From Thermodesulfobacteriota bacterium (GTDB lineage Bacteria > Desulfobacterota_D > UBA1144 > Nemesobacterales > CSP1-2), in contig DATMAT010000063.1 of assembly GCA_035559815.1 (NCBI GenBank), positions 1 to 64,000 of the forward strand: DNA of 64,000 nucleotides, in the 5' to 3' direction. A program made the position numbers and the translations under genes. The notes under the pieces were generated by a model. It made no database searches and was not told the origin of the DNA. It saw only the letters and a program-made list of their open reading frames with translations. Positions 1 to 21,988 of the stretch are shown here, piece after piece (the first letter of the stretch is position 1; every line of letters starts with the position of its first letter).

Positions 1-224
1 AAATTCCACCATGGTTCGATTCTAGTTGACGATCATATAGAGGAAGCATCTGTTGTTATTGAGTTTAAATTCCACCATGGTTCGATTCTAGTATTTGCCT
101 TGCTTCCATCTCAGCCTGATTTGTTCAAGTTTAAATTCCACCATGGTTCGATTCTAGTACCTTATTAGGGCCGGTATCGATTGTTATATGACAAGTTTAA
201 ATTCCACCATGGTTCGATTCTAGT
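1..224 (-). CRISPR. CRISPR array, type I-B, continuing beyond the left edge
   Basis: Three complete identical 30-base repeats lie at 63-92, 129-158 and 195-224. A fourth at 1-26 lacks its first four bases because of the window edge. The three spacers (27-62, 93-128, 159-194) are each 36 bases, so the period is 66. The plus strand reads GTTTAAATTCCACCATGG at the start of each repeat. The minus strand therefore ends in ATTTAAAC, which resembles the ATTGAAAC 5' handle of type I crRNAs. This, and the cas2 gene 106 bases away, indicates transcription on the minus strand with the leader at 225-330. No spacer matches anything I could see elsewhere in the window. Confidence 0.97.
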
Positions 225-330: not shown

Positions 331-591
331 TCATATAATCGTTCCAATCTCCTTCTTCTCCAACCCTATGATATCCCGTGCTAACCACTTTGATTCCATC
401 GCATAGATTATAACAGAGTCCTCATTAGACTTAATAATATCCTTGATCTCATGTTTTAATCTTTCCAATTGGGAATCACTGAGTTCTCCCTCGAAAACAG
501 AGTTCTGCACCCAGTTTAGATACTTCCTGAGCAACTTAAGCATCTTATTGACCCGCTTCACATTTACATCATAAACCATTATGTAGTACAT
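331..591 (-). CDS. cas2: CRISPR-associated endoribonuclease/integration factor Cas2
   Basis: The 86-residue product has the length and ferredoxin-like start of Cas2, with the conserved Asp near residue 8 in the motif YDVN and a hydrophobic strand VIIYAM near residue 60. Cas2 forms the Cas1-Cas2 integrase that inserts new spacers at the leader end. It is the last gene of the cas operon, starts 4 bases after the cas1 stop and lies 106 bases from the array. Family assignment rests on length, motif and position beside cas1. Confidence 0.93.
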   Translation of the reverse strand: MYYIMVYDVNVKRVNKMLKLLRKYLNWVQNSVFEGELSDSQLERLKHEIKDIIKSNEDSVIIYAMESKWLARDIIGLEKKEIGTII

Positions 592-595
592 AGCT

Positions 596-1630
596 TCACC
601 ACCACATTCTAAATCCTTTAAATTCTTCTTCTCCTAGAATATGCTTAACTAGCTTATAACACTCCAACTTTATCAACTGACGATAGCTCACATTCCGCTT
701 AAGGCTCGGATGCTTTACTGTGGTTTTTAGCTTCTCGTCAAATTGCTCCGTAAAAGTTCTTCTTCCCTTCTCGTTCAGATAACAAAATTCCAAATTGCTC
801 TCAAAGTGATTCTCGCGAATTTGGTTATGGTTAATCATGCTAAAAATCAGCCTATCAACCAGGAGCGGCTTAAATATCTCGGCTAAATCCAAACTCAAAG
901 AGAAACGCTTTGTACTCGGCTGGTGCAAGTAACTTATAGCCGGATTGAGCTGTGTTTTATAAATCTCGCTTAAAGCAGTTGCATATACCATAGAATTACC
1001 AAATGAAATAAGCGCATTTATGGGATTATCCGGCGGCATTCTAGTGCGCTTATCGAATAGGAACGTTTCAGATTTTAGAATCTTATTCCAGGCCTCGAAG
1101 TAACGCTTGTGGATTTGCCCCTCAAATCCCATGAGTTCCTCTATTGATCTTGAACTGCCCATCTCTCTGTTTTTATTCTCTATATGCGAAATGAAACCGC
1201 TCAGGTCTCCGTACCTGCGCTCATAATACTTCAGGTTTTTGAGTATGTTGTGATTTGAAGATTGTATGATTTCCTGCGCTATGGCAAAGCGCAGGCCTGG
1301 ATCTACGTAATGTGATACCTGCTTTACTAAAATATGGCCCGAAACCGCGTACTCCCTTGGATAAAAAGTTCCCGTGTAGTAGCCGTAGTAGTTAAAGAAA
1401 TGAATCGGTATATGATTTTGTCCGAGAAAGTTTATAACTTTATTATTCAGGTCAACTTCACCAAAAAGGTAGATCGAATCTATCGTCTCTACCGGAACCG
1501 CGCGCCTGTTTGCAGGCTTTGATTCCTTTTCTTCTTGGGATTCGTCGTTAGAATCGCCATATTCGAAAAAGACCGTGTTATCCTTTCTCCTTATCCGCCC
1601 GTTGCTAAAGATATAGAACGGTTTTTCCAT
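596..1630 (-). CDS. cas1: CRISPR integrase Cas1 (type I-B)
   Basis: The 344-residue protein matches Cas1 in length and layout. It has an N-terminal beta domain beginning FYIFSNGRIRRKDNT and a helical C-terminal domain with the metal ligands Glu170 (GFEG), His236 (YLHQP) and the DLAEIFKP segment at 248-255. Cas1 is the catalytic subunit that joins prespacers to the array. Residues 25-40 form an acidic, charged stretch that looks longer than the usual loop. The gene follows cas4 after a 135-base gap holding two repeat copies, the widest gap within the cas operon. Confidence 0.96.
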   Translation of the reverse strand: MEKPFYIFSNGRIRRKDNTVFFEYGDSNDESQEEKESKPANRRAVPVETIDSIYLFGEVDLNNKVINFLGQNHIPIHFFNYYGYYTGTFYPREYAVSGHILVKQVSHYVDPGLRFAIAQEIIQSSNHNILKNLKYYERRYGDLSGFISHIENKNREMGSSRSIEELMGFEGQIHKRYFEAWNKILKSETFLFDKRTRMPPDNPINALISFGNSMVYATALSEIYKTQLNPAISYLHQPSTKRFSLSLDLAEIFKPLLVDRLIFSMINHNQIRENHFESNLEFCYLNEKGRRTFTEQFDEKLKTTVKHPSLKRNVSYRQLIKLECYKLVKHILGEEEFKGFRMWW

Positions 1631-1647
1631 TTAAACCATCCATTTTA

Positions 1648-1752
1648 ACCACAAAGGCACCAAGACACGAAGTTTTGTATTAGGAATTCAGTGGCCATAA
1701 GAAAACCTTGTGTTCATAAATTTTTCTTTGTGCCTTAGTGACTTCGTGGTGG
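1648..1752. repeat. Inverted pair of a dispersed intergenic repeat in the cas4-cas1 gap
   Basis: Positions 1648-1673 on the minus strand read CTTCGTGTCTTGGTGCCTTT, and 1726-1752 on the plus strand read CTTTGTGCCTTAGTGACTTC. They are opposite-facing copies of the same unit, roughly 26 bases each. A third copy lies at 38657-38680, in front of an alpha/beta hydrolase gene. Many bacterial genomes carry such dispersed units between genes. The pair may form a stem in the cas mRNA, since it sits inside a transcribed operon. Confidence 0.75.
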
Positions 1753-1765
1753 AGTCTACAAAAAT

Positions 1766-2275
1766 CTACACCCAGCAAAATTCAAAATAACTGCACGACC
1801 TGCAGGCCGGAATTCTTACTTTCTCTGGGATCTCATCCCTCGGAAGAATCTCTTCGATTTCCTTTATCACTTCTTTTAGATACTCCCTGTCCGAGTCGAT
1901 AAGCTCAATGAGTTCGCGCTTATGAAACTTGGGATAGTTTATCTCCGCCCTAAATCCCTGGACGCCCTTTGATTCAAGAAAATAGAGGTAATACTTCACC
2001 TGCCAAAGGTGTGCTTCTTCGAGTTTATCCGACTTTTTTACCTCATGAATGACCTTGTTCCTGAAATCAATCCAATCAATCGAGATCATTTCGTCAATTT
2101 TAATTTCTTTCTTTTGGCGGTCGTAGGAAATCTCAGATAACAACCTCCCGAGTGCAACCGTGTCAGACTCTGTTTCAAAATTTATCTGATGCGCAAAAAG
2201 CCACAGCTTCCGTTTGCAGACGAAGTAGTAGTTAACGAGGGTTCCGGTGTGTTTTAGCTGCTGGTCCAGGGTCAT
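1766..2275 (-). CDS. cas4: CRISPR-associated exonuclease Cas4
   Basis: The 169-residue protein has the four cysteines that hold the iron-sulphur cluster of Cas4: Cys20 (FVCKRKLW) and Cys158, Cys161 and Cys167 at the C-terminus. Between them lies a RecB-like nuclease core with IDWIDF and the EVKKSDK motif. Cas4 trims prespacers and sets their PAM orientation together with Cas1-Cas2. Its start overlaps the cas3 stop by 4 bases, so the two are probably translationally coupled. A stand-alone Cas4 between cas3 and cas1 is the standard I-B order. Confidence 0.95.
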   Translation of the reverse strand: MTLDQQLKHTGTLVNYYFVCKRKLWLFAHQINFETESDTVALGRLLSEISYDRQKKEIKIDEMISIDWIDFRNKVIHEVKKSDKLEEAHLWQVKYYLYFLESKGVQGFRAEINYPKFHKRELIELIDSDREYLKEVIKEIEEILPRDEIPEKVRIPACRSCSYFEFCWV

Positions 2276-5190
2276 ATTATGTTGCTTTCTGCATCCTCAG
2301 TTTCTTGATTTTCCTTATTATCGCTCTCTCCGGTCTTACTTTTGCTCTCTCTAATGCCCAAGCTCTCATCATATTGAACTGGAAGGGCAAAAATGCCCGA
2401 CAGCCATCTTTTAAGTTTCCTTTCAAAGTCATCTTGTTTGTAATTCCTGTATCCATAGATCTTTCCTAATTTTTCAAGGATTTCCTCAATATCATTGTTA
2501 TTCAACTTTTCAAAAACTTTATAAAACACCCAATCATCGGGGGATAGGTTCTTGCGATGTTTAAAATAACCATCTGAAACGACAAACTGTGAAAGGACTT
2601 GCTTTTTAAAAAGTGTGAAAAGATGCTTTGACTCTTTTATTTCATCACTTTTGAAAAATTCTTTAATCTTTTTTATGAAATCACTGACTTTACTTTCAGG
2701 TATAAGCTGAATATCGTAAATCTCTCTAAAGATTTTGTGTGCCTCCTCTTTCCTGTCCGACATAAAGCCAGCGTCTAAGATGTCTAAAGTTTTCCTGAAT
2801 TCACTCAAATAGCTGTGGTCATCCGGCAAGGATAAATAAAGCAGTTTGACCATCTCGTACTTATCGTATTCGGATAGGGCGGCGTAAGGGTTCTTGAGTT
2901 GTTGATGCGGCAAAACTAGCTTTTTCTTCTTGCCTTTTGCAGGCTGCTTAACCTCACCTAAAAGCTCATCTAGGATTTCATTTGTATCTTTTTTCTCCAT
3001 ACTCTTCAGCCAATCTTTTAAATTTTGAGGTTCAAGACTTTTCCGGTCGCTACACTCCTTTAGAATCTTCAAACTTAAAAGTAGAAGGTCTTTATCATAG
3101 AAGTTGGCATTTCCCGATTCCAAACCATTTTCAAAAGTCCAAACGGTAACATTAGTCTCGGACTGTTCAAATCCATTTCCATAATTTTTAAACTCAACGG
3201 TACTTTTCGCTTGCTCATCGTAACGATAACGATATTCAACAACTTCACCTTCAGGATTGTGTTTGATACGTCTTAACACCCTTCCCATCCTCTGAACAAG
3301 CGCATCGAGAGGTGCGATTTCTGTAAATAGCACATCCGCATCAATGTCTAAAGATGCTTCGACAACTTGAGTCGCAATGAGGATTCTAGGTTGATTTCCA
3401 TTCAGAGATTTCGGATTCTTGAATTCGGCTGCAAGAACCTTTTCATTATTTTCCCTATCCTTCAATGTAAATCGGGAATGAATAAGATAGACAGGAGTAT
3501 TTCCAGCTAGCCTTTTAACCTGATCGTATAAGTCTTGAGCCATTCTAACTGTGTTTAAGATTACAAGAACTCTTTTGTTTCCTTTAGCTTCTTGAATAAC
3601 TCGCCAACTAATTCTTTGGATGATTTGCTCCAGTTGCTCATCTGAAAGTTCAAACAGCGACTTTTTCGTGTCCCCTACACCTTCAACTCTCACAAGTTCA
3701 ATCTTATGCTTCTTCAAATTGCTAAAATTTCTTTTACTTTCCTTTTTGTCGGTGTAGACATCGACTATCCTATAATCTGCTTTTTTAATCCTTTTCTCTA
3801 ATTCCTCTTTCACAAACTTCGGCAATGTAGCCGTCATAAGAAGAAACTTCCCACCCATAAGGACCATATCCTCTATAAATTTCACAATGATAGCGGCGGA
3901 TTTGGGATTGTAAGCCTGCACCTCGTCAATCACAAGACGTGAATAAGACATAGTAGCATAGGTTTTCTCATAAGATGGGGGCTTTAGAGCATAGGGGAAG
4001 AACTGGTCGCCAGTCGAAACAATTACAGGATGAGAAAGCTGGCGGGCAAAATCGTAAACCTTTAAACTGTCTGTTTCGGCTCCGTCCCCTAGAAGATAGA
4101 CATCCGCATCGGAGTGAAGCAATCCTGTTTTCTCTTCTGTGAAGATGTTTTTTGCCCTCTTAAATATTTGATTCACAGCCGAACGGAGCGGCAGTGTGTA
4201 GAAGAACTTATCTCCATTCGACCAGAGGAAAGCAAACTCGGTTTTTCCGTAGCCAGTGGGAGCAATTAGGATAACGCTTTTATCTTTACAATCTTTTACT
4301 TTATCTACTTGCCATATTGAAGCGTTTGGGCTTGATGATTTGTCCTTAATGTATTTCTCGACTTCTTCTTCCAGTTTGTTATCTAAACCTGAGATCTCGA
4401 TTTTATTCGTGTCTTCGTTCTCTTCTTCGCAGAATGAAGCAAAGTGGTCTGAGCGCATGAGCAAACCGCTTATTAATATCCATTTCTTTTTCTCTTCTTT
4501 TGATAGTTCAGCACGTTGTGGTAGAAGAGTATTTAAGTAGGGTGGCATAACGTAATGAGCCAAAGACAAGCCGTTTACAATCCCGCTTGCCCATTCCTCA
4601 TTAAAGAGGATATAGTCTTTCGGGTTGAATCCGTCTTGAAAGTTCTCAAATTCACTCGCTAGGTTTTCAAATAGTGCTTCTCGAAATGACCTATGTTCAA
4701 TTAGTTTGCTAAGAAATTCACACAAATCTTTATCACTCCAGTTGATAAGCTGGTCAAAGTTGCCGCGCCAGTGGTGAAATGCCACAGCGGAGTAAATAAA
4801 CTGAGTAAGGTGTTCTAATTCTTCTTGGGTAGGTTTTACATTCTTTAACTGTTCATTTATCTTCTCTCCATCCATCCAGAAGACTGAAAAAAGAGAATGT
4901 GGAATATTATTGTAGGGATAAAGAGGTTTGTAATCAATGTTTCCGAGGGTTCTTTGCTGAAATGCAGGAAGAACTTTTCCGAAGTCATGGCACATTATGG
5001 CAATCTGGATTGCCAGTTTTACTGCTTCATCTATGTGTTTGTCAGGGAGGTTTTTAGAATTAGAGAGATTTTCAAAGGCATCCCAAACATCACGAGTATG
5101 TTCCTTGAGATATATTTCACCTTTCTCCTGACTATCTGTTTCTTTATGCTTTTTGATGCTTTTAGCCAGGATTCTATGTGGTCGATCCAT
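2272..5190 (-). CDS. cas3: CRISPR-associated nuclease-helicase Cas3 (HD + SF2 helicase)
   Basis: The 972-residue protein combines both Cas3 activities. The HD nuclease domain occupies about residues 25-250, with His31, the His68-Asp69 pair in MCHDFGK, and further histidines in NIPHSLF and AFHHWRG. The helicase domain has Walker A APTGYGKTEF near residue 310, the DEVQ box near 420, TATLP near 453 and QRMGRVLRR near 635. Cas3 is recruited by the R-looped Cascade complex and degrades the target. The ORF overlaps cas5 by 17 bases and cas4 by 4. The C-terminal 250 residues are charged and poorly conserved in appearance. Confidence 0.96.
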   Translation of the reverse strand: MDRPHRILAKSIKKHKETDSQEKGEIYLKEHTRDVWDAFENLSNSKNLPDKHIDEAVKLAIQIAIMCHDFGKVLPAFQQRTLGNIDYKPLYPYNNIPHSLFSVFWMDGEKINEQLKNVKPTQEELEHLTQFIYSAVAFHHWRGNFDQLINWSDKDLCEFLSKLIEHRSFREALFENLASEFENFQDGFNPKDYILFNEEWASGIVNGLSLAHYVMPPYLNTLLPQRAELSKEEKKKWILISGLLMRSDHFASFCEEENEDTNKIEISGLDNKLEEEVEKYIKDKSSSPNASIWQVDKVKDCKDKSVILIAPTGYGKTEFAFLWSNGDKFFYTLPLRSAVNQIFKRAKNIFTEEKTGLLHSDADVYLLGDGAETDSLKVYDFARQLSHPVIVSTGDQFFPYALKPPSYEKTYATMSYSRLVIDEVQAYNPKSAAIIVKFIEDMVLMGGKFLLMTATLPKFVKEELEKRIKKADYRIVDVYTDKKESKRNFSNLKKHKIELVRVEGVGDTKKSLFELSDEQLEQIIQRISWRVIQEAKGNKRVLVILNTVRMAQDLYDQVKRLAGNTPVYLIHSRFTLKDRENNEKVLAAEFKNPKSLNGNQPRILIATQVVEASLDIDADVLFTEIAPLDALVQRMGRVLRRIKHNPEGEVVEYRYRYDEQAKSTVEFKNYGNGFEQSETNVTVWTFENGLESGNANFYDKDLLLLSLKILKECSDRKSLEPQNLKDWLKSMEKKDTNEILDELLGEVKQPAKGKKKKLVLPHQQLKNPYAALSEYDKYEMVKLLYLSLPDDHSYLSEFRKTLDILDAGFMSDRKEEAHKIFREIYDIQLIPESKVSDFIKKIKEFFKSDEIKESKHLFTLFKKQVLSQFVVSDGYFKHRKNLSPDDWVFYKVFEKLNNNDIEEILEKLGKIYGYRNYKQDDFERKLKRWLSGIFALPVQYDESLGIRESKSKTGESDNKENQETEDAESNII

Positions 5191-5998
5191 TATCCCGTCT
5201 TCCTGAGAAAAATACAGGCATTCTGATTTTCACGTTGTTTTCTTCAAATTCGTCAAAGTAACCTTTTAGTCCGATAATCTTTCCATCATTTAAGAAAGCG
5301 TCTTCGTACTCAAAGTTTCTGACGCCGTTGGTTAATTTATAGAAGGTTGGCACTCTGTAGCGGAGCCCCGGTGTTTGCCCATTGCGAACATAATGTTTAG
5401 GTATCCAGAAAAAGTTGCGGTAATTGCCGTCTTGGATTTTTTCTTTGTATTCTAGTTCAAAAATACTAGATATTTCCTCAAAAACTATCCAATCCTCCGC
5501 TCTTCCCAAATGGATGGGATAAAGACGTTGTGTAGGATTCTCTAAACTGGTTTTTATCTTTTTTAAAAAAACTTCATCATTGTTTGCCAGGTAAATGAAC
5601 AGTTTTACCTCACTAAGAATGTCAATTAGAACAGGGCTTTGACCACCTATATGTTCGATATGACCGTTGATTTCTCTGATATTTGTAGAGCCAAACCTTA
5701 TTATATGACTGTCTTTGGAAAGATTTCTAAGCCACGTGTATTCAGTTGTTTTGCTTTCAAACCTTCCGGCTATGGAGATTTTTAGTTCTTTTAATTTCTT
5801 ATAATTCGCATCTTCTTTAGGTTCCCCTTGTGTCTTCAGATTCCTTATTCCCAACACATTGCATAAAAGTCCAATCACTGTAGAGTAAGGCGGGATGGGG
5901 TAAGTATGTCTCCGTTGATAGGTAAACGGAACACGATAGTGTGCTTGTGGTTGGTAGATTCTTATACGTAAGGCTTTTGTGGTTGACTCTTTATTCAT
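5174..5998 (-). CDS. cas5: Cascade subunit Cas5 (Cas5t/Cas5b)
   Basis: The 274-residue protein starts with a RAMP-type strand followed by QAHYRVPFTYQRRHTYPIPP and PYSTVIGLLCN, the N-terminal signature of Cas5 proteins. Cas5 caps the 5' handle of the crRNA and contacts the large subunit. The gene follows cas7 after 24 bases and overlaps cas3. It has no sign of the Cas6-like catalysis seen in Cas5c, and a separate cas6 is present, so a structural role is expected. Confidence 0.93.
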   Translation of the reverse strand: MNKESTTKALRIRIYQPQAHYRVPFTYQRRHTYPIPPYSTVIGLLCNVLGIRNLKTQGEPKEDANYKKLKELKISIAGRFESKTTEYTWLRNLSKDSHIIRFGSTNIREINGHIEHIGGQSPVLIDILSEVKLFIYLANNDEVFLKKIKTSLENPTQRLYPIHLGRAEDWIVFEEISSIFELEYKEKIQDGNYRNFFWIPKHYVRNGQTPGLRYRVPTFYKLTNGVRNFEYEDAFLNDGKIIGLKGYFDEFEENNVKIRMPVFFSGRRDNGSTT

Positions 5999-6022
5999 TG
6001 CAAGATTTGCCTAATTTTTTCT

Positions 6023-7132
<1,110 letters not shown>

Positions 7133-7675
7133 TCATTCTTCTTGCTCTCCTAACACACCACTTAAGAAGGAAAGAATAAGCACTTTGAATAATTCATCTG
7201 AGTAAACGGGTTTGAATGCTTCAGCTAAGTCTAGGCGGAATTGGAGTTTGAATGACCAGAAGATTCTCAAGAGTCCATAAAAAACTTCATCTCTTTTACC
7301 AAGCCTAGTTAATTCCATAAGGCGATAGCCTTGCCGTTTTACAAATACTTCCTTCAATTCGTTCTTTTTCTTACTCTGCTCACTAGTATCCTTTTCTGAA
7401 GGAGTTACCAGACTATAGCCGTATTTTCTCAATGATTCGGCTAGATCGCTTGTGTTCTCATAAGATACTTGTTTGTATAATCTGTAAATACCTTTATCTT
7501 GAGGCTTTGCCTCTTTTGCCCATTCAAGCAAGCTTTGAAGTTTTTTATAATTAGCTTTTAACTCCTTTATTCCTTTACCGAAATCATCTTTTGTTATTGA
7601 ACCGTTCCTTATTTTGCTTTCTAAATCCGCGAAGATTTGTTCAAGTGTCTCATTTCGATTGGTTTCTGTACTCAT
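7133..7675 (-). CDS. Separate Cas8b C-terminal/small-subunit (Cas11-like) protein candidate
   Basis: This 180-residue protein is predicted from composition to be almost all helical and charged. Its C-terminus has a hydrophobic helix run with GLLRIFWSFKL and FKVLILSFLSG. The start overlaps the stop of the preceding Cas8b-like gene by 4 bases. In type I-B the large subunit Cas8b is usually one polypeptide of about 500-600 residues whose C-terminal helical bundle can also be made separately as the small subunit Cas11. The 377-residue neighbour plus this 180-residue protein add up to that length. I infer that this gene is a split-off C-terminal domain acting as Cas11. An unrelated accessory factor remains possible. 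Confidence 0.6.
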   Translation of the reverse strand: MSTETNRNETLEQIFADLESKIRNGSITKDDFGKGIKELKANYKKLQSLLEWAKEAKPQDKGIYRLYKQVSYENTSDLAESLRKYGYSLVTPSEKDTSEQSKKKNELKEVFVKRQGYRLMELTRLGKRDEVFYGLLRIFWSFKLQFRLDLAEAFKPVYSDELFKVLILSFLSGVLGEQEE

Positions 7676-8805
7676 AGGATTACCTCTTTTTTGTTTTTCT
7701 CTTCAATTGATGCATAAAGTTTGAGCATTTTTTGGGCTACTAAAAATGGTTTACTTCTATTTGTTGATAACCTAAGATAGTCATTCAAAAACTCCTTCTC
7801 ACTTTTATTTCGTTCATTGAAAGGTTTTAAACCAATTCTCAACATCCTATATGCATCCTCCACCAATTTTGTAAGCTTTCCATCTAACACAATATTTAGC
7901 ACCTTGAACTCACCTATACTATTCAAAAGGTTTGCAATTTCCTTATCCGAAAGAATTCTGATGATTTCATAAGGCAAACTAAAAAAATCTATTTCAACTT
8001 TGTAATCCTGGTTTGGGTTACCTGTATTTGCAACTTTTTTCCTGTATTTGCTCACGACCTCAATATTCATTCCTGTCCATTCGCCAAGCGTAGCCTGTAT
8101 TTTGGTGGCGTATTCGATAACGCTCATGCCGAGTATCTGCCTTACATCTTTTGCTCCTTGCTTGGTGTAAATATCTCCAAGAAATTTATTGAGGTGATAC
8201 ATCACTTTAAAAGATGGAGCATTTATGAAGATTTGGGAGTTATCTTGAAGTGTTGTGAGGGCAAGGTGGTGGTGGACGATTATAAAACTACATAGATAAC
8301 ATATAGGAATACTTGAATTCAAATTCCAAAAGCCATTGGGAAACTTTTGAGAAGGCGCTATATCATTATGAAATCTTACATCCAACTTGGTTATACCCTC
8401 TAAAAACTTGGATAGTCCTTGATTTTTAAGAAAATCTATTTCAGCTTGGTCAAAACTGAATTTTTGAAGACATAATCCACAGTTTATATTGCTATTCTCT
8501 CGAATATTCCTCAGGGATTTTACAAAGTGGGGAAAAGCATCTTTCCAACTTGATTGTAAATAATTTCTATAAATCGGTGCGTTTCCAATTATTGATGAAA
8601 TTTTGTCTTCTGAGAAATATCTTCTCTTAACATCTAATTCATCAAATAGTTGAGCTTCTATATGAGCTCTGCCATCTGTATCTAAATAAGTCTTGTCTAA
8701 TTGATTTTCGATAATCTCGATAGACCGAACGAACCCCACCACTCCCGCATTGTAAAGCCAGTTTGATGGGTAAAGAGTTATTTTGTTTTCCTTCTCTTCA
8801 TTCAT
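7672..8805 (-). CDS. cas8b: Cascade large subunit Cas8b (Cst1-like), short form
   Basis: The 377-residue protein opens with YPSNWLYNAGVVGFVRSIE, which I recognise as the Cst1-type large-subunit signature. It has paired cysteines (CGLCLQKF near residue 108 and CYLCSF near 171), consistent with the zinc-binding knuckle of this family. The large subunit recognises the PAM and recruits Cas3. It is shorter than usual for Cas8b, and the missing C-terminal part seems to be encoded by the next gene. A GGGAGAT Shine-Dalgarno precedes the ATG, which overlaps the cas6 stop by 4 bases. Confidence 0.85.
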   Translation of the reverse strand: MNEEKENKITLYPSNWLYNAGVVGFVRSIEIIENQLDKTYLDTDGRAHIEAQLFDELDVKRRYFSEDKISSIIGNAPIYRNYLQSSWKDAFPHFVKSLRNIRENSNINCGLCLQKFSFDQAEIDFLKNQGLSKFLEGITKLDVRFHNDIAPSQKFPNGFWNLNSSIPICYLCSFIIVHHHLALTTLQDNSQIFINAPSFKVMYHLNKFLGDIYTKQGAKDVRQILGMSVIEYATKIQATLGEWTGMNIEVVSKYRKKVANTGNPNQDYKVEIDFFSLPYEIIRILSDKEIANLLNSIGEFKVLNIVLDGKLTKLVEDAYRMLRIGLKPFNERNKSEKEFLNDYLRLSTNRSKPFLVAQKMLKLYASIEEKNKKEVIL

Positions 8806-9575
8806 ATCTCCCTCACCACCTCAACCATCCCGAAGCCCTGTCCACGTCTCGAGCCGAGACCAACTAGGTTTATAAGGTTTAGAATGCCTGGGTCTGATTT
8901 CAGAGAAAAAGTACCAACAAATCCCGGGAGCTTTAGCCCCATGTGTTTGATGACGAGTTTCCTTAACTTGATAGGATTGAATATAACCTCGGTGGCGTCA
9001 TTCAAGCTGAGGAGATTCCGACAAAGCTCATCCATATTGAACTTGAAGGCTTCCTCAAAATCGTTATCTCCCTCAAAGTTGAAGCACTTCGGACAAACAT
9101 AGTGTCTTTCATTTTTGTGACTTCTTATGAGTATAGGAGAGATGGTCCTGAGAATAACCTCATTTTTCTCCAGTCTTTTAGGCTTGATGATGTCGTTATG
9201 TTCTACCCTAAATGTAACATTGCGTATTGGGAATTCCTTAGTTTTCAAGAGATGGTTATAAACCATGATGAGTATGTCCGGATGGTTGCTGCTGAATTTA
9301 AACTCTATTGGGCTTTTGAAAAAAAGCTCATCGTTTTCTACCCTCACTTCATTTCCAAAAGATACGGCAAATGTATAGGGCTTTACCGTCCTTTTTTCAA
9401 AGAGGGTTTTGTAAAGCTCTGGAGCCGAGCTTTCTATCGCCCCCTTGATGATAGACATGAATCCTTCTCTGAAATCAACTTTAAGAGAAGCGGTTTCCGA
9501 GTGTTCGTTGACGGCCGATAATCTGGATACCAGCACTAAACCAAAATCATTTGACGAATTCATGGCAGTGGTCAA
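8802..9575 (-). CDS. cas6: crRNA-processing endoribonuclease Cas6
   Basis: The 257-residue product ends with the glycine-rich loop LVGLGSRRGQGFGMVEVV typical of Cas6 and has two ferredoxin-like halves. Cas6 cuts each repeat to leave the 8-base handle. I use the TTG at 9575: a GGAGG on the minus strand lies 8 bases before it, while the ATG at 9563 lies too far from that site. The TTG overlaps the TGA stop of a 51-codon ORF, suggesting coupled translation. A CPKC motif near residue 150 is an extra feature of unknown use. Confidence 0.92.
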   Translation of the reverse strand: MTTAMNSSNDFGLVLVSRLSAVNEHSETASLKVDFREGFMSIIKGAIESSAPELYKTLFEKRTVKPYTFAVSFGNEVRVENDELFFKSPIEFKFSSNHPDILIMVYNHLLKTKEFPIRNVTFRVEHNDIIKPKRLEKNEVILRTISPILIRSHKNERHYVCPKCFNFEGDNDFEEAFKFNMDELCRNLLSLNDATEVIFNPIKLRKLVIKHMGLKLPGFVGTFSLKSDPGILNLINLVGLGSRRGQGFGMVEVVREI

Positions 9576-9727
9576 AAAGGGAACCTCCAGATCTTTTTTA
9601 CTATACTCCTGCCGACCAGCTTGTTCTTTGCACGCCTGCCGATTCTCTTGGGATCACCGCCGAGAAGGGTAGTTATATCGTTTAGAATCCTGGCGAGTTT
9701 GTAAAGGAAACTTACGAAACTCCGCAT
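9572..9727 (-). CDS. Small basic protein of 51 residues heading the cas operon
   Basis: This short minus-strand gene translates to a basic peptide beginning MRSFVSFLYKLARILND and containing GGDPKRIGRRAKNKLVGR. The ATG at 9727 follows GGGGAG at about 7 bases, and the stop overlaps the cas6 start. A promoter candidate lies 25 bases upstream. The layout (hydrophobic amphipathic helix, then an Arg/Lys-rich segment) resembles small uncharacterised basic proteins seen in other bacteria, but I cannot name a family. Expression with cas6 looks likely from spacing; function is unknown. It might be unrelated to CRISPR and simply sit first in the transcript. Confidence 0.7.
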   Translation of the reverse strand: MRSFVSFLYKLARILNDITTLLGGDPKRIGRRAKNKLVGRSIVKKIWRFPF

Positions 9728-9751
9728 AATCGCTCTCCCCAGTCTCAGCCC

Positions 9752-9780
9752 ATTTTAGCACAAATTCAAAAACAGTTGAA
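9752..9780 (-). promoter_or_regulatory. Promoter of the cas operon
   Basis: On the minus strand TTCAAC (plus 9775-9780) and TAAAAT (plus 9752-9757) are separated by exactly 17 bases. Transcription would start near 9745, about 20 bases before the ATG of the 51-codon ORF. No other good promoter is visible before cas6. The decayed CRISPR repeats begin 39 bases upstream of the -35 element. Confidence 0.55.
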
Positions 9781-9818
9781 GCATCAATCGAGACACCCCA
9801 TGGCATGTCTCCACATTA

Positions 9819-9980
9819 GTTTTATCCACCATGTTTTAACCATAGTATAAGTACTAACCTGGACAAAAACTGTCCATCAAGAGCCAGATTTAAACACCAT
9901 GGTTAGATTCTAGTTCAAACCCGCTAACACGGTAACTCGCTAACCGCTTAGTTTAAATTCCAATGTGGTCCAATTCTAGC
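9819..9980 (-). CRISPR. Decayed CRISPR mini-array upstream of the cas promoter
   Basis: Three degenerate copies of the active repeat lie at 9819-9846, 9887-9914 and 9951-9980, in the same orientation as the main array. The third keeps all 30 bases with several substitutions. The second lost 2 bases but still reads CACCATGG and GATTCTAGT. The first is weakest, with TCCACCATG and TAGT retained. The intervening segments are 40 and 36 bases. Start-to-start distances are 68 and 64, which sum to twice the 66-base period of the active array. This is a relic array or a retained crRNA-like regulatory RNA gene; the sequence alone cannot tell. Confidence 0.8.
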
Positions 9981-10062
9981 GTGAATCAAAAGCTCTTAAA
10001 TCCGCATCATAAATCTATGTGAGTTCATCGTTTGTCACCTCCAGCCAATGGAGGAAAGAACA

Positions 10063-10389
10063 ATGACCGAGATTCCCTCGAACATCTATCTTGCCATCCT
10101 GGTTCTAATATTAGGCTTAGCTATGGTTTCTTGGAGTTTATCCTGGGGAGTGAAGAAGGTGCTCCAAGAGTCACTCGACCCAATGAGAGCACTGGCCCTA
10201 GTGCGATCTATGCGTATCGGACTTGTCGGCTTGAGCTTAGTCGGTATCGGAGCCGGTTGGATATGGAATATGGAGAGCCTACTTTTTCTCTCCATCATTT
10301 TCGGCTGTGAAGAGCTCTACGAGACCTCACTTGTTATTGCCCTATTGAAAAGATCCCCGCTCGATAGCTCCAAACAGGCGCAAGCTTAA
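10063..10389 (+). CDS. Small membrane protein, unrecognised
   Basis: The 108-residue protein has about three hydrophobic segments: IYLAILVLILGLAMVSW near residues 9-25, IGLVGLSLVGIGAGW near 52-67, and LLFLSIIFG followed by TSLVIALL near 73-95. I chose the ATG at 10063 because GGAGG lies about 8 bases before it; an in-frame ATG at 10048 has no ribosome site. It lies directly before tRNA-Glu. I do not recognise the family. An inner-membrane location is the only supported statement. Confidence 0.65.
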   Translation: MTEIPSNIYLAILVLILGLAMVSWSLSWGVKKVLQESLDPMRALALVRSMRIGLVGLSLVGIGAGWIWNMESLLFLSIIFGCEELYETSLVIALLKRSPLDSSKQAQA

Positions 10390-10446: not shown

Positions 10447-10524
10447 GGCCCCTTCGTCTAGCCCGGCCTAGGACGTTGCCCTCTCAAGGCAGAAACACGG
10501 GTTCGAATCCCGTAGGGGCCGCCA
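10447..10524 (+). tRNA. tRNA-Glu (anticodon CTC)
   Basis: The cloverleaf is complete. The acceptor GGCCCCT (10447-10453) pairs with AGGGGCC (10514-10520). The anticodon arm has the loop CTCTCAA, giving anticodon CTC, and the T-arm carries GGTTCGAATCC. The discriminator G and an encoded CCA end at 10524. A CTC anticodon reads GAG. The 3' end is the probable insertion site of a former integrative element: an integrase relic follows at 10635 and a degraded 3' copy lies at 12351-12394. Confidence 0.95.
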
Positions 10525-10634: not shown

Positions 10635-10770
10635 TCAACGGCCTTCTTTTTTTAGCTCTAGAGTTGAATGCGAATACCGCCTCGTCATCACAATTGATTT
10701 ATGGCATAACAACTCTTGAACCATTGTAAGATCAACACCTTTCATAACCAGGTTAGTTGTAAATCCGACA
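10635..10770 (-). pseudogene. Relic of a tyrosine recombinase (integrase), C-terminal end only
   Basis: The minus strand encodes a recognisable tyrosine-recombinase C-terminus. It contains TNLVMKGVDLTMVQELL, then CHKS in place of the usual GHKS, and MTRRYSHSTLELKKE with the catalytic tyrosine before the stop. The upstream HxLRH box is degraded and no integrase-like sequence is visible beyond about 10770, where the reading frame becomes meaningless and overlaps the permease start. It lies 110 bases past the tRNA-Glu 3' end and points toward it, the classic place for an integrase at a tRNA-borne attachment site. About 45 codons remain, so it is inactive. Confidence 0.75.
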
Positions 10771-10863
10771 AATCCTTTCATAAGAAACATACTTGGACAT
10801 TCCCTTTCCATCATAAATAGCATATTATTTAGGATACTATTATCGTTCGGGGCGTAGAGACTT

Positions 10864-12324
10864 ATGCACAGACGATTTCTGGCGAAGAAGACTATCGCTG
10901 AATTGGTGGAACAAGCAGAGGACCAAAAGTACAGTCTGAAACGCGTGCTGGGTCCTTTTAATCTGATAACCCTTGGTATCGGTATCATCGTCGGCGCCGG
11001 TATTTTCGTGCTAACTGGTCAGGCAGCCGCACAGTATGCAGGACCGGCCATAGTACTATCCTTCATTATATCGGGTATCGGCTGTGCGTTGACCGGCTTG
11101 TGCTATGCAGAAATGGCTTCGATGATTCCCGTCGCTGGCAGTGCCTACACTTATTCGTATGCAACTCTGGGTGAGTTTTTTGCATGGATCATCGGATGGG
11201 ATCTTATTCTGGAATACCTATTCGGCACGGCTACTGTAGCCGTCGGCTGGTCCGGATATGTGGTAAGTTTCCTCAAAGACTTTGGCATTGTAATTCCCGA
11301 GCAACTTTCAAATTCTCCATTGGCATTCGATGCAACCATGGGTTGGATACGCACAGGCGCCATTATCAATCTACCTGCCGTCTTCGTTATTGTAGTGATG
11401 ACTTTTCTCCTGGTGGTGGGAATTCAGGAATCGGCCGCCGCAAATAACGTGATGGTATTTGTCAAGATCTCTGTGTTACTGCTTTTTATCGGTGTGGGTC
11501 TATTTTTCATCAATACGGAGAACTGGAAACCTTTCATACCACCAAATCAGGGAACCTTTGGACACTTTGGCTGGAGTGGTATATTACGGGGTGCTGGCGT
11601 GATATTCTTTGCTTACATCGGTTTTGACGCTGTTTCCACGGCAGCGCAGGAGGCGCGAAACCCCCAGCGAGATATGCCGATTGGCATTCTAGGCTCACTC
11701 GGGGTTTGCACACTGTTATATATAGCTGTGGCACTGGTGTTGACTGGCATCGTGAAGTATGACCAGCTACTGGTGCCGGACCCCATTGCAGTGGCTGTGG
11801 ACTCAGTAGGTTCAGAGCTTTTCTGGTTACGTCCCCTTGTTAAAATCGGGGCAATTGCCGGACTCAGCTCCGTGATCCTCGTATTTCTCTTGGGACAGCC
11901 TCGAATCTTTTATTCCATGGCCAGGGACGGTTTGCTGCCGAAACAGTTTGCAGCGGTGCATCCCCGGTTCCGAACGCCGTATATTACAACGATAGTGACA
12001 GGTATTTTAGCGGCTTTCTTTGCCGGCCTATTCCCCATCGGCATTCTGGGTGAGCTCGTTTCTATTGGTACCCTACTCGCCTTCGTTATAGTCAGTATAA
12101 GCGTGCTGGTGCTACGTTATACCCGTCCGGAACTTCCACGCCCGTTCAAGACGCCGCTAGTTCCTCTGGTGCCAATTCTGGGCGCTGCCCTGAGTTTATT
12201 GCAAATGCTTTCACTGCCGGGTGATACATGGTTACGGCTGATTATCTGGATGGCCATAGGACTGGTAATTTACTTCGCTTACGGCCTCCGGCACAGCCTG
12301 GTTCGGTCGGTAACTCGCCGATAA
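10864..12324 (+). CDS. APC-family amino-acid permease (cationic amino-acid transporter-like)
   Basis: The 486-residue protein has about 12 hydrophobic segments. It carries the APC signature [16 protein letters not shown] near residues 37-53 and [20 protein letters not shown] near 83-102. The N-terminal tail, ending in [10 protein letters not shown], is typical of the bacterial CAT branch, which exchanges or imports amino acids across the inner membrane. The substrate cannot be read from the sequence. The gene lies alone between the integrase relic and a degenerate tRNA-Glu 3' copy, so it may be island cargo. No clear ribosome site precedes the ATG. Confidence 0.9.
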
Positions 12325-12350: not shown

Positions 12351-12394
12351 CACTCGACGAAGAAACGCCGGTTCTGATCCCGTAGGTGTTGCCA
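12351..12394 (+). pseudogene. Degenerate 3' half of tRNA-Glu (attachment-site copy candidate)
   Basis: The segment follows the 3' half of the tRNA-Glu at 10447. About 25 of the last 33 positions agree, including GAAAC, CGGTTC, ATCCCGTAGG and the terminal GCCA. It lacks the 5' half. A duplicate of a tRNA 3' end in the same orientation is what integration at a tRNA leaves at the far end of an element. The mismatches indicate an old event. A chance or independently decayed tRNA copy is the alternative. Confidence 0.55.
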
Positions 12395-20115: not shown

Positions 20116-20976
20116 TTATCTTTCCTTAAGACCTTTTTTCAGAGCATTAAGTTGATTTAATCTTTGCTCAAATATTTTTTCTGAATCAATTTCACGAGCA
20201 GTCACTTGGCTCAAAAATCGAAACTGACCTTTATCGTCTGTTTCATTTTCAAGTATTTCTAGTAGTTTATTCTTAATATTATTATCTATAATTTTTGCTA
20301 TATCCCTCCCGAGTAGTCTGGCACTTGCTACAGGTAAAGTAAAATCTTCTTCTTCCAATATATCTGGATTTTTCTCATAAAGGTGATCTTCATTTCCAGC
20401 TTCCCAGTAATGATCAAATATTAGAATCAAATCTTTAGCGTCTTTATCACTCCCTGATGAGCGATCATTGAATGATATTAATTTCAAAATAGTCAAACCT
20501 GCAAGAGAAGCAACACGTATATCCAGTACCGGATCTGAACTTAATCTAACCATAGTAGCGCTTTTATATGCTTCTTCAAAACCTAATACATTTAAAATAG
20601 CTTCATCCTCTGGTGGCCATGTTATTTGATTGCCTTTGGTTTCAATATTACCGAAAGGAATAAAATCTATGGGGATACTATTATTGAAGAGAAACCTTTG
20701 AGATTCTCTTGATTTAGTAAATCTTCCCGTTTGGACTAAATCCTTTGATAATTTTTTATAATCTTCCCAGCTTGATACTTGTATTCCTATATCTATATCA
20801 ACTGTAGCTCTAGTTGTATTAATTCCATAACCATAGCTTAGGATCATATCTCTTGCCGAAGCACCTACAATGAAATACTTTATTCCGGAAGAATCGGCTA
20901 CCTTTGCTATGGTTTCGTAAATAGAAACCGTTAAAGGGTCAATCTTCCCCGATAAGTCTAGCAAGTTCTCGCTCAT
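20116..20976 (-). CDS. AbiEii-like nucleotidyltransferase (type IV toxin candidate)
   Basis: The 286-residue protein has the nucleotidyltransferase core: YFIVGASARDMIL near residues 34-46, then ATVDIDIGIQV with the DxD pair near 58-68, and a third acidic position in PIDFIPFG near 105. A lysine-aspartate segment SDKDAKDLILI near 177 matches the helical part of AbiEii-type enzymes. AbiEii toxins transfer nucleotides to target RNA and are held in check by AbiEi. The start lies inside the preceding antitoxin-like gene (38-base overlap). Housekeeping nucleotidyltransferase activity is the alternative. Confidence 0.75.
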   Translation of the reverse strand: MSENLLDLSGKIDPLTVSIYETIAKVADSSGIKYFIVGASARDMILSYGYGINTTRATVDIDIGIQVSSWEDYKKLSKDLVQTGRFTKSRESQRFLFNNSIPIDFIPFGNIETKGNQITWPPEDEAILNVLGFEEAYKSATMVRLSSDPVLDIRVASLAGLTILKLISFNDRSSGSDKDAKDLILIFDHYWEAGNEDHLYEKNPDILEEEDFTLPVASARLLGRDIAKIIDNNIKNKLLEILENETDDKGQFRFLSQVTAREIDSEKIFEQRLNQLNALKKGLKER

Positions 20977-21988
20977 ATATTATTTTGGCAGTTTCAGTAT
21001 TTCTGGCATCGCCAGTTGCAATTAAATCCGCGTAAATCAAAATTGGTGGAACTAAATCTTTATAAGGCCAGTTATACTCTATTTCCCAAAAAGCTTTAAG
21101 GATCTCAACGTTACCGTTTGGTTTCTTTGCAAGTTTCTTTTGTAGTAATAATCTTGTTGGATCGTTCTTTACATAAATAGTAACAATTTCTGGTCTCAAA
21201 TATTGGGTTGTTTTCGCCGCTGCTACTTCACCACCCCAATAGGCATCAAAATCTTGTATTTGAGTAAACTTCCACCATTCATCTTCATTGGCTTGGAATC
21301 TACCAAGCATTAATTTCGGTCTTAGGTTTTCAGGATAGGTTTCTGTCCATCGATCCAATAGTTTTCTCTTATTTATGAGCCTCCTGCCTCGCTTTTTAGT
21401 CCCGATTAAAAAGCCTGCCGCATTTAGGTCTCTTATTGCCCAGCCGACTGTTCCTAATGCAACTTTTGCTTTCTTGGCAATTTCTCTATATGGGGCATTC
21501 ACTAATTCCGGCTGACACAGAAAAGCAAATACGACCTTTAATCCTGTAGGTTGAAAAGCCCTTATCTTTCGTTTCTTAGTAAGAACTTCAATTGCTTGTT
21601 TATTACCCTTGATAAATATAAACACCGGAGGTTCATTTATATATGCGTTGCCCGCCATGTCGATGAAGGGTATATCCAATTTCCTTAATTGCTCAGCTAA
21701 ATTTGGGTTTATATAATCTGTAACAATTATTCTCTTTAGGTGGAACTGTGCAAATTTCGCAAGAAAGATTAAATGAATTTTGACTGGTGTAAGAAATTTT
21801 TCAATCTCAGCAACATATCTAATAACTTTTCCATCCACTGCTAGGCTAATGACATCAGCTTGGCGACCTTCAATATCTACTTCTCTCCCTTCAACCACAA
21901 AACCCAAGCCGGTTAATTTATTGAAAGCCTCTAAAGCTCTTTCAAGAATTTCAGCCTCTTTATTATGAGTTTCCTTTGGCATCACCAT
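20939..21988 (-). CDS. AbiEi-like antitoxin/autorepressor with winged-helix segment
   Basis: The 349-residue protein begins with a nuclease-like alpha/beta domain. A winged-helix stretch follows near residues 165-200 (YREIAKKAKVALGTVGWAIRDLNAAGFL), and a C-terminal domain contains WWKFTQIQDFDAYWGGEVAA. This layout matches proteins annotated as AbiEi-type antitoxins, which pair with an adjacent nucleotidyltransferase. The winged helix and the palindromic operators directly upstream support autorepression. The ATG is at 21988 with an alternative ATG two codons later; no clear ribosome site is seen. Confidence 0.72.
   Translation of the reverse strand: MVMPKETHNKEAEILERALEAFNKLTGLGFVVEGREVDIEGRQADVISLAVDGKVIRYVAEIEKFLTPVKIHLIFLAKFAQFHLKRIIVTDYINPNLAEQLRKLDIPFIDMAGNAYINEPPVFIFIKGNKQAIEVLTKKRKIRAFQPTGLKVVFAFLCQPELVNAPYREIAKKAKVALGTVGWAIRDLNAAGFLIGTKKRGRRLINKRKLLDRWTETYPENLRPKLMLGRFQANEDEWWKFTQIQDFDAYWGGEVAAAKTTQYLRPEIVTIYVKNDPTRLLLQKKLAKKPNGNVEILKAFWEIEYNWPYKDLVPPILIYADLIATGDARNTETAKIIYERELARLIGED

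Follow-up and report, generated by a model that had tools for sequence, protein, structure and literature searches.

The stretch analysed here, referred to below as the window, comprises the first 64,000 nucleotides (nt) of contig DATMAT010000063.1 from a Thermodesulfobacteriota bacterium (assembly GCA_035559815.1). Its left part carries a complete type I-B operon of CRISPR (clustered regularly interspaced short palindromic repeats)-associated genes, in which the order on the minus strand is cas6, cas8b1 (recognised weakly), an open reading frame (ORF) of 180 amino acids (aa), cas7, cas5, cas3, cas4, cas1 and cas2, followed by a leader and the active array; no gene of the operon, cas6 included, has an interrupted frame. 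The active repeat is 30 bases long and reads ACTAGAATCGAACCATGGTGGAATTTAAAC on the minus strand, with copies at 63-92, 129-158 and 195-224 and a partial one at the contig end; only four copies were found across the genome assembly, and the spacers are 36 nt. The contig opens within this array at window position 1; the array's leader-distal end is absent from the assembly. The subject of the present analysis lies at the other end of the operon, upstream of its presumed promoter, where three degenerate repeats (ΨR1 to ΨR3) enclose two spacer-like segments (ΨS1 and ΨS2; Table 1).

Table 1. Degenerate repeat stub, cas locus and adjoining host DNA, in window coordinates
Feature	Position	Strand	Remarks
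ΨR1, first degenerate repeat	9951-9980	-	GCTAGAATTGGACCACATTGGAATTTAAAC; 24/30 against the active repeat; last 12 bases intact, including the 8-base handle
ΨS1, spacer-like	9915-9950	-	TAAGCGGTTAGCGAGTTACCGTGTTAGCGGGTTTGA; 36 nt, equal to active spacer length
ΨR2, second degenerate repeat	9887-9914	-	ACTAGAATCTAACCATGGTG and TTTAAATC, separated by a 3-base deletion that disrupts the 8-base 3' handle; one change in the first 20 bases
ΨS2, spacer-like	9847-9886	-	About 40 nt; contains TGGACAGTTTTTGTCCA
ΨR3, third and most decayed repeat	9819-9846	-	ACTATGGTTAAAACATGGTGGATAAAAC; recognised mainly by phase; gapped score 10
Presumed cas operon promoter	9752-9785	-	Weak -35 TTCAAC at 9780; extended -10 TGCTAAAAT, about 9760-9752; found by eye
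51-aa basic ORF	9572-9727	-	MRSFVSFLYKLARILNDITTLLGGDPKRIGRRAKNKLVGR...; first gene of the operon; good ribosome site
Type I-B cas operon	331-9575	-	cas6 to cas2
Active array	1-224	-	Truncated by contig end; leader at cas2 side, about 225-330
Ancestral host DNA	9981-10389	+	Upstream region and 113-aa membrane-type gene common to relatives; homology from 9982

A first reading of the letters alone (the sequence-only reading) had reported three mutated copies of the active repeat upstream of cas in the orientation of the array, and our analysis confirms this. ΨR1, which differs from the active repeat at positions 1, 9, 11 and 16-18, and ΨR2 (9885-9914, 19/30 when ungapped) are the two best minus-strand matches outside the array in the 64 kb. 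Both are far above background: the gapped score of ΨR2 is 17, and the best other place reaches 19/30 without gaps (a single place, on the plus strand) or 10 with gaps. A BLAST search of a repeat-spacer-repeat unit against the 3.97-Mb genome returned the array and then ΨR1 only (E 0.051). The score of ΨR3 is at background, since a gapped score of 10 is shared with chance matches (three such places in 128 kb); it stands in phase, however, 68 bases from ΨR2, for which we estimate a chance of about 1e-4. Measured by 5' edges the spacing is 66 and then 68 bases; the earlier figures of 68 and 64 refer to other edges. The bounds of ΨR3 are best set at 9819-9846. Decay is strongest in ΨR3, at the leader-distal end, where the repeat is nearly gone. 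No structured repeat was found, except for a chance-type hairpin in ΨR3. An origin of ΨR1 and ΨR2 by ectopic duplication of a host site was considered and rejected, because ΨR2 resembles ΨR1 less than it resembles the active repeat.

The outer side of ΨR1 adjoins DNA that belongs to the host. The 113-aa gene there (10048-10389, with a probable start at ATG 10064) has relatives in two genomes, G013 and G023 (68% identity), and more distant ones in G006 and G003; in G006, too, it is followed by tRNA-Glu. The DNA upstream of this gene aligns between the window and G013 and G023 with scores of 47.5 and 49, whereas shuffled sequences reached at most 18 and 19.5. Homology to G013 ends at 9982, two bases past ΨR1; the alignment with G023 continues to 9942 but gains only about 1.5 in score by doing so. 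On these alignments, host DNA begins about two bases beyond ΨR1, and the degenerate repeats form the edge of an acquired island. The absence of a Cas7 hit in any of the 57 other genomes of the phylum is consistent with such an acquisition. No close relatives with the same operon were found within the phylum, in plasmids or in viral contigs; distant relatives number five, with a Cas7 identity of about 50%. The left end of the island was not located, as the contig starts inside the array. The host DNA of G023 that is homologous to ΨR1 (L036, about 804-833) is itself repeat-like, with 18/30 matches in the same orientation, against 15/30 only in G013; this may be coincidental, or it may mark a repeat-like site at which the island landed.

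Since host homology runs from 9982, no space remains for a leader of the ΨR1-ΨR3 array, and any transcript of the degenerate unit could begin only in host DNA. A small living array could in principle exist under these conditions: ΨR1-ΨS1-ΨR2 would be transcribed from the host-derived DNA at 9981-10060 on the minus strand, and Cas6 would free an ordinary immune CRISPR RNA (crRNA), with no regulatory role. The intact handle of ΨR1, the intact 5' part of ΨR2, the 36-nt length of ΨS1 and the uninterrupted frames of cas6 and the other genes of the operon all fit this picture. We nevertheless consider it unlikely, because a consensus scan called no promoter upstream of ΨR1, the upstream DNA is host sequence and not leader, and ΨS1 gave no useful match in viral contigs, phages or plasmids, although the active spacers likewise found no protospacer in the viral contigs. 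As neither they nor ΨS1 matched, these contigs yielded no protospacer-adjacent motif.

Related operons provide a closer comparison. In one of them (L009) an array lies between cas6 and cas8, and in another (L011) arrays that share the same leader and a single orientation flank both sides of the operon. The terminal repeats of L011 (at 6121 and 14962) and of L009 (at 5714) have kept their 5' part and lost or changed their 3' end, as ΨR2 has. An arm on the cas6 side is thus a normal variant of such loci, and by this comparison the stub reads as its remnant. The stub resembles the leader-distal ends of these type I-B arrays in its orientation, in its place beside or inside the cas genes and in a terminal repeat with the 5' half kept and the 3' end lost or changed; it differs from them in being decayed throughout, in having neither a leader nor upstream units, and in forming the edge of an island.

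Taken together, these observations suggest, with a probability of roughly two in three, that the degenerate stub at the island edge is the relic of a former array arm. This explanation, which the sequence-only reading had already called the plainer one, is favoured by the junction of island and host, which lies directly outside ΨR1 and leaves no leader, by the arrays of related operons, which share its place and orientation and whose terminal repeats decay alike, and by the near loss of ΨR3. Degenerate copies of the resident repeat in array orientation and period, with the leader absent upstream, are what such a relic should present, and both are seen here. The chance-level matches of ΨS1 and ΨS2 described below also agree with it. 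In the scenario that we envisage, a type I-B locus whose cas operon had an array of the same orientation at either end would have been acquired beside the 113-aa gene and tRNA-Glu, and the cas6-side arm would then have lost its leader and all spacers except the last two. The shortened arm would end at the repeat that abuts host DNA and would subsequently have decayed. A leaderless arm would gain no further spacers and probably makes little or no crRNA. The order of these events, the neutrality of the decay and the absence of function are what we infer from the arrangement. More generally, an island that stops cleanly at a CRISPR repeat is relevant to how cas loci with arrays of one orientation on either side are trimmed and fixed in new hosts.

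Several features weigh against a relic. ΨR1 retains 12 intact bases at its 3' end despite six changes (P about 0.03 under random placement, a post hoc figure), ΨR2 is unchanged at 19 of the first 20 positions, and the length of ΨS1 is exactly that of the active spacers. ΨS1 is also flanked by both of the repeat halves needed for a crRNA, like the published CreA genes (PMC9458426). In addition, the host junction is defined by two relatives only, both of one genus.

Published haloarchaeal CreTA genes have a first repeat whose last eight bases are preserved and a second repeat that lacks them (PMC9458426), and in Haloarcula hubeiense the CreTA unit, which belongs to a type I-B system, lies immediately upstream of cas (PMC8501985). 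The stub shares with this CreA the position immediately upstream of cas, one spacer-like segment enclosed by two divergent repeats, and a handle kept in the first repeat (ΨR1) and lost in the second (ΨR2); the resemblance is genuine. It differs in having three repeats instead of two, in that no seed match was found in a neighbouring promoter, and in a neighbouring ORF that bears no mark of a toxin. A degenerate repeat unit adjoining the cas promoter is likewise the arrangement of CreR, the crRNA-like repressor of cas promoters in type I and type V-A systems, whose occurrence in type I has been reported (PMC12737573). The pattern of decay, however, does not discriminate between these possibilities, because the loss of one half is also seen in ordinary terminal repeats of related operons.

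For a CreA or CreR role, Cas6 would have to cut ΨR1 just ahead of ATTTAAAC and ΨR2 at the corresponding position, and the handle of ΨR1 and the 5' part of ΨR2 do preserve the repeat halves for Cas6 and Cas5. A regulator also needs a target, and here the earlier proposal of a CreR- or CreTA-type unit loses ground. Seed pairing of ΨS1 and ΨS2, tried in several frames, was scored along the shared promoter of cas and the small ORF and along the divergent promoter (9560-9818 and 9981-10064). The best seeds paired at 7-8 of 10 positions, which shuffled spacers reached in 28-92% of cases (P 0.28-0.92), and matches to the array leader and to the rest of the window were at chance level. Genome-wide, the ΨS1 seed had eight matches besides itself, against seven in a reversed control. 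The best genome-wide match of ΨS1 (15/17, after TTC, L028) lies inside a sigma-factor-like coding sequence, about 0.6 such matches being expected by chance on our estimate, and was not used. Thus, the comparison of the inter-repeat segments with the cas promoter and the genome, which had been proposed with partial seed pairing in mind, yields only chance-level matches, and the prediction of CreR and CreTA that can be computed fails; what stands of the proposal is the CreA-like pattern of ΨR1 and ΨR2. A very short seed, or a weak target that depends on a protospacer-adjacent motif, could still have escaped these scans.

These results bear first on CreR, in which RNA from ΨS1 (or ΨS2) would direct Cascade to the cas promoter through a partially paired seed and lower cas expression. 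The placement of a degenerate unit directly upstream of that promoter and a pattern of decay equal to that published for crRNA-like antitoxins are both in keeping with CreR; no partial seed match of about 10 nt to the cas promoter was found, complementarity to it was not above chance, and there is no leader, and we regard this function as quite improbable. Our analysis also suggests a caution for the prediction of CreR and CreA in general. Retention of the 5' half together with loss of the 3' handle, a mark of second repeats in CreA, is also found in ordinary terminal repeats of related arrays, so position and decay pattern are insufficient without a seed match.

The presumed cas promoter and its first gene need some revision. 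The promoter rests on the extended -10, which was recognised by eye; the -35 is poor, and the consensus scan did not call the promoter. An imperfect palindrome of 22 bp (18/22) at 9790-9811, between ΨR3 and the cas -35, looks operator-like, but the window holds 17 palindromes of this quality or better, itself included. The first gene behind the promoter is the 51-aa ORF and not cas6; cas6 probably starts at TTG 9575, overlapping the stop of this ORF. Homologues of the 51-aa ORF occur in mobile-element settings in G003 and in a viral contig (L039), where one directly follows a tyrosine recombinase, and this sequence context points to a mobile-element ancestry; a further homologue is present in G007. 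No Pfam or PHROG match was obtained.

A CreTA- or CrePA-type unit, in which the degenerate repeats would repress a toxin (either this ORF, which lies between the unit and cas6, or an RNA toxin), would be served by a small basic ORF in the right place. It is, however, highly improbable: the matches of ΨS1 and ΨS2 to the promoter of the ORF, which lies within the scanned 9560-9818, are not above shuffles, its homologues sit in mobile elements, it matches no known family, and the KilA-N domain that is typical of CreP proteins (PMC12737573) was not found in it. Nothing marks the 51-aa ORF as a toxin. Finally, ΨR1-ΨS1-ΨR2 might be a living crRNA-like regulator of this Cas8b1 type I-B system, expressed from a promoter in the host DNA that borders the island. 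Its target would be cas or the small ORF of mobile-element type, and our scans would have missed it because the seed is too short or the target too distant. This is distinctly unlikely, and a relic array arm remains the preferred explanation.

Several other features were noted along the window. A C-terminal fragment of a phage-type integrase (10635-10988 on the minus strand) lies beside tRNA-Glu (10447-10524 on the plus strand), which suggests an old integration at that tRNA; the tRNA gave the only Rfam match. At 12353-12394 the 3' part of tRNA-Glu (10483-10524) recurs with 76% identity, which may be what is left of a tRNA or the trace of an attachment site. An AbiEi/AbiEii-like type IV toxin-antitoxin pair is encoded further along the window (20116-21988, minus strand).
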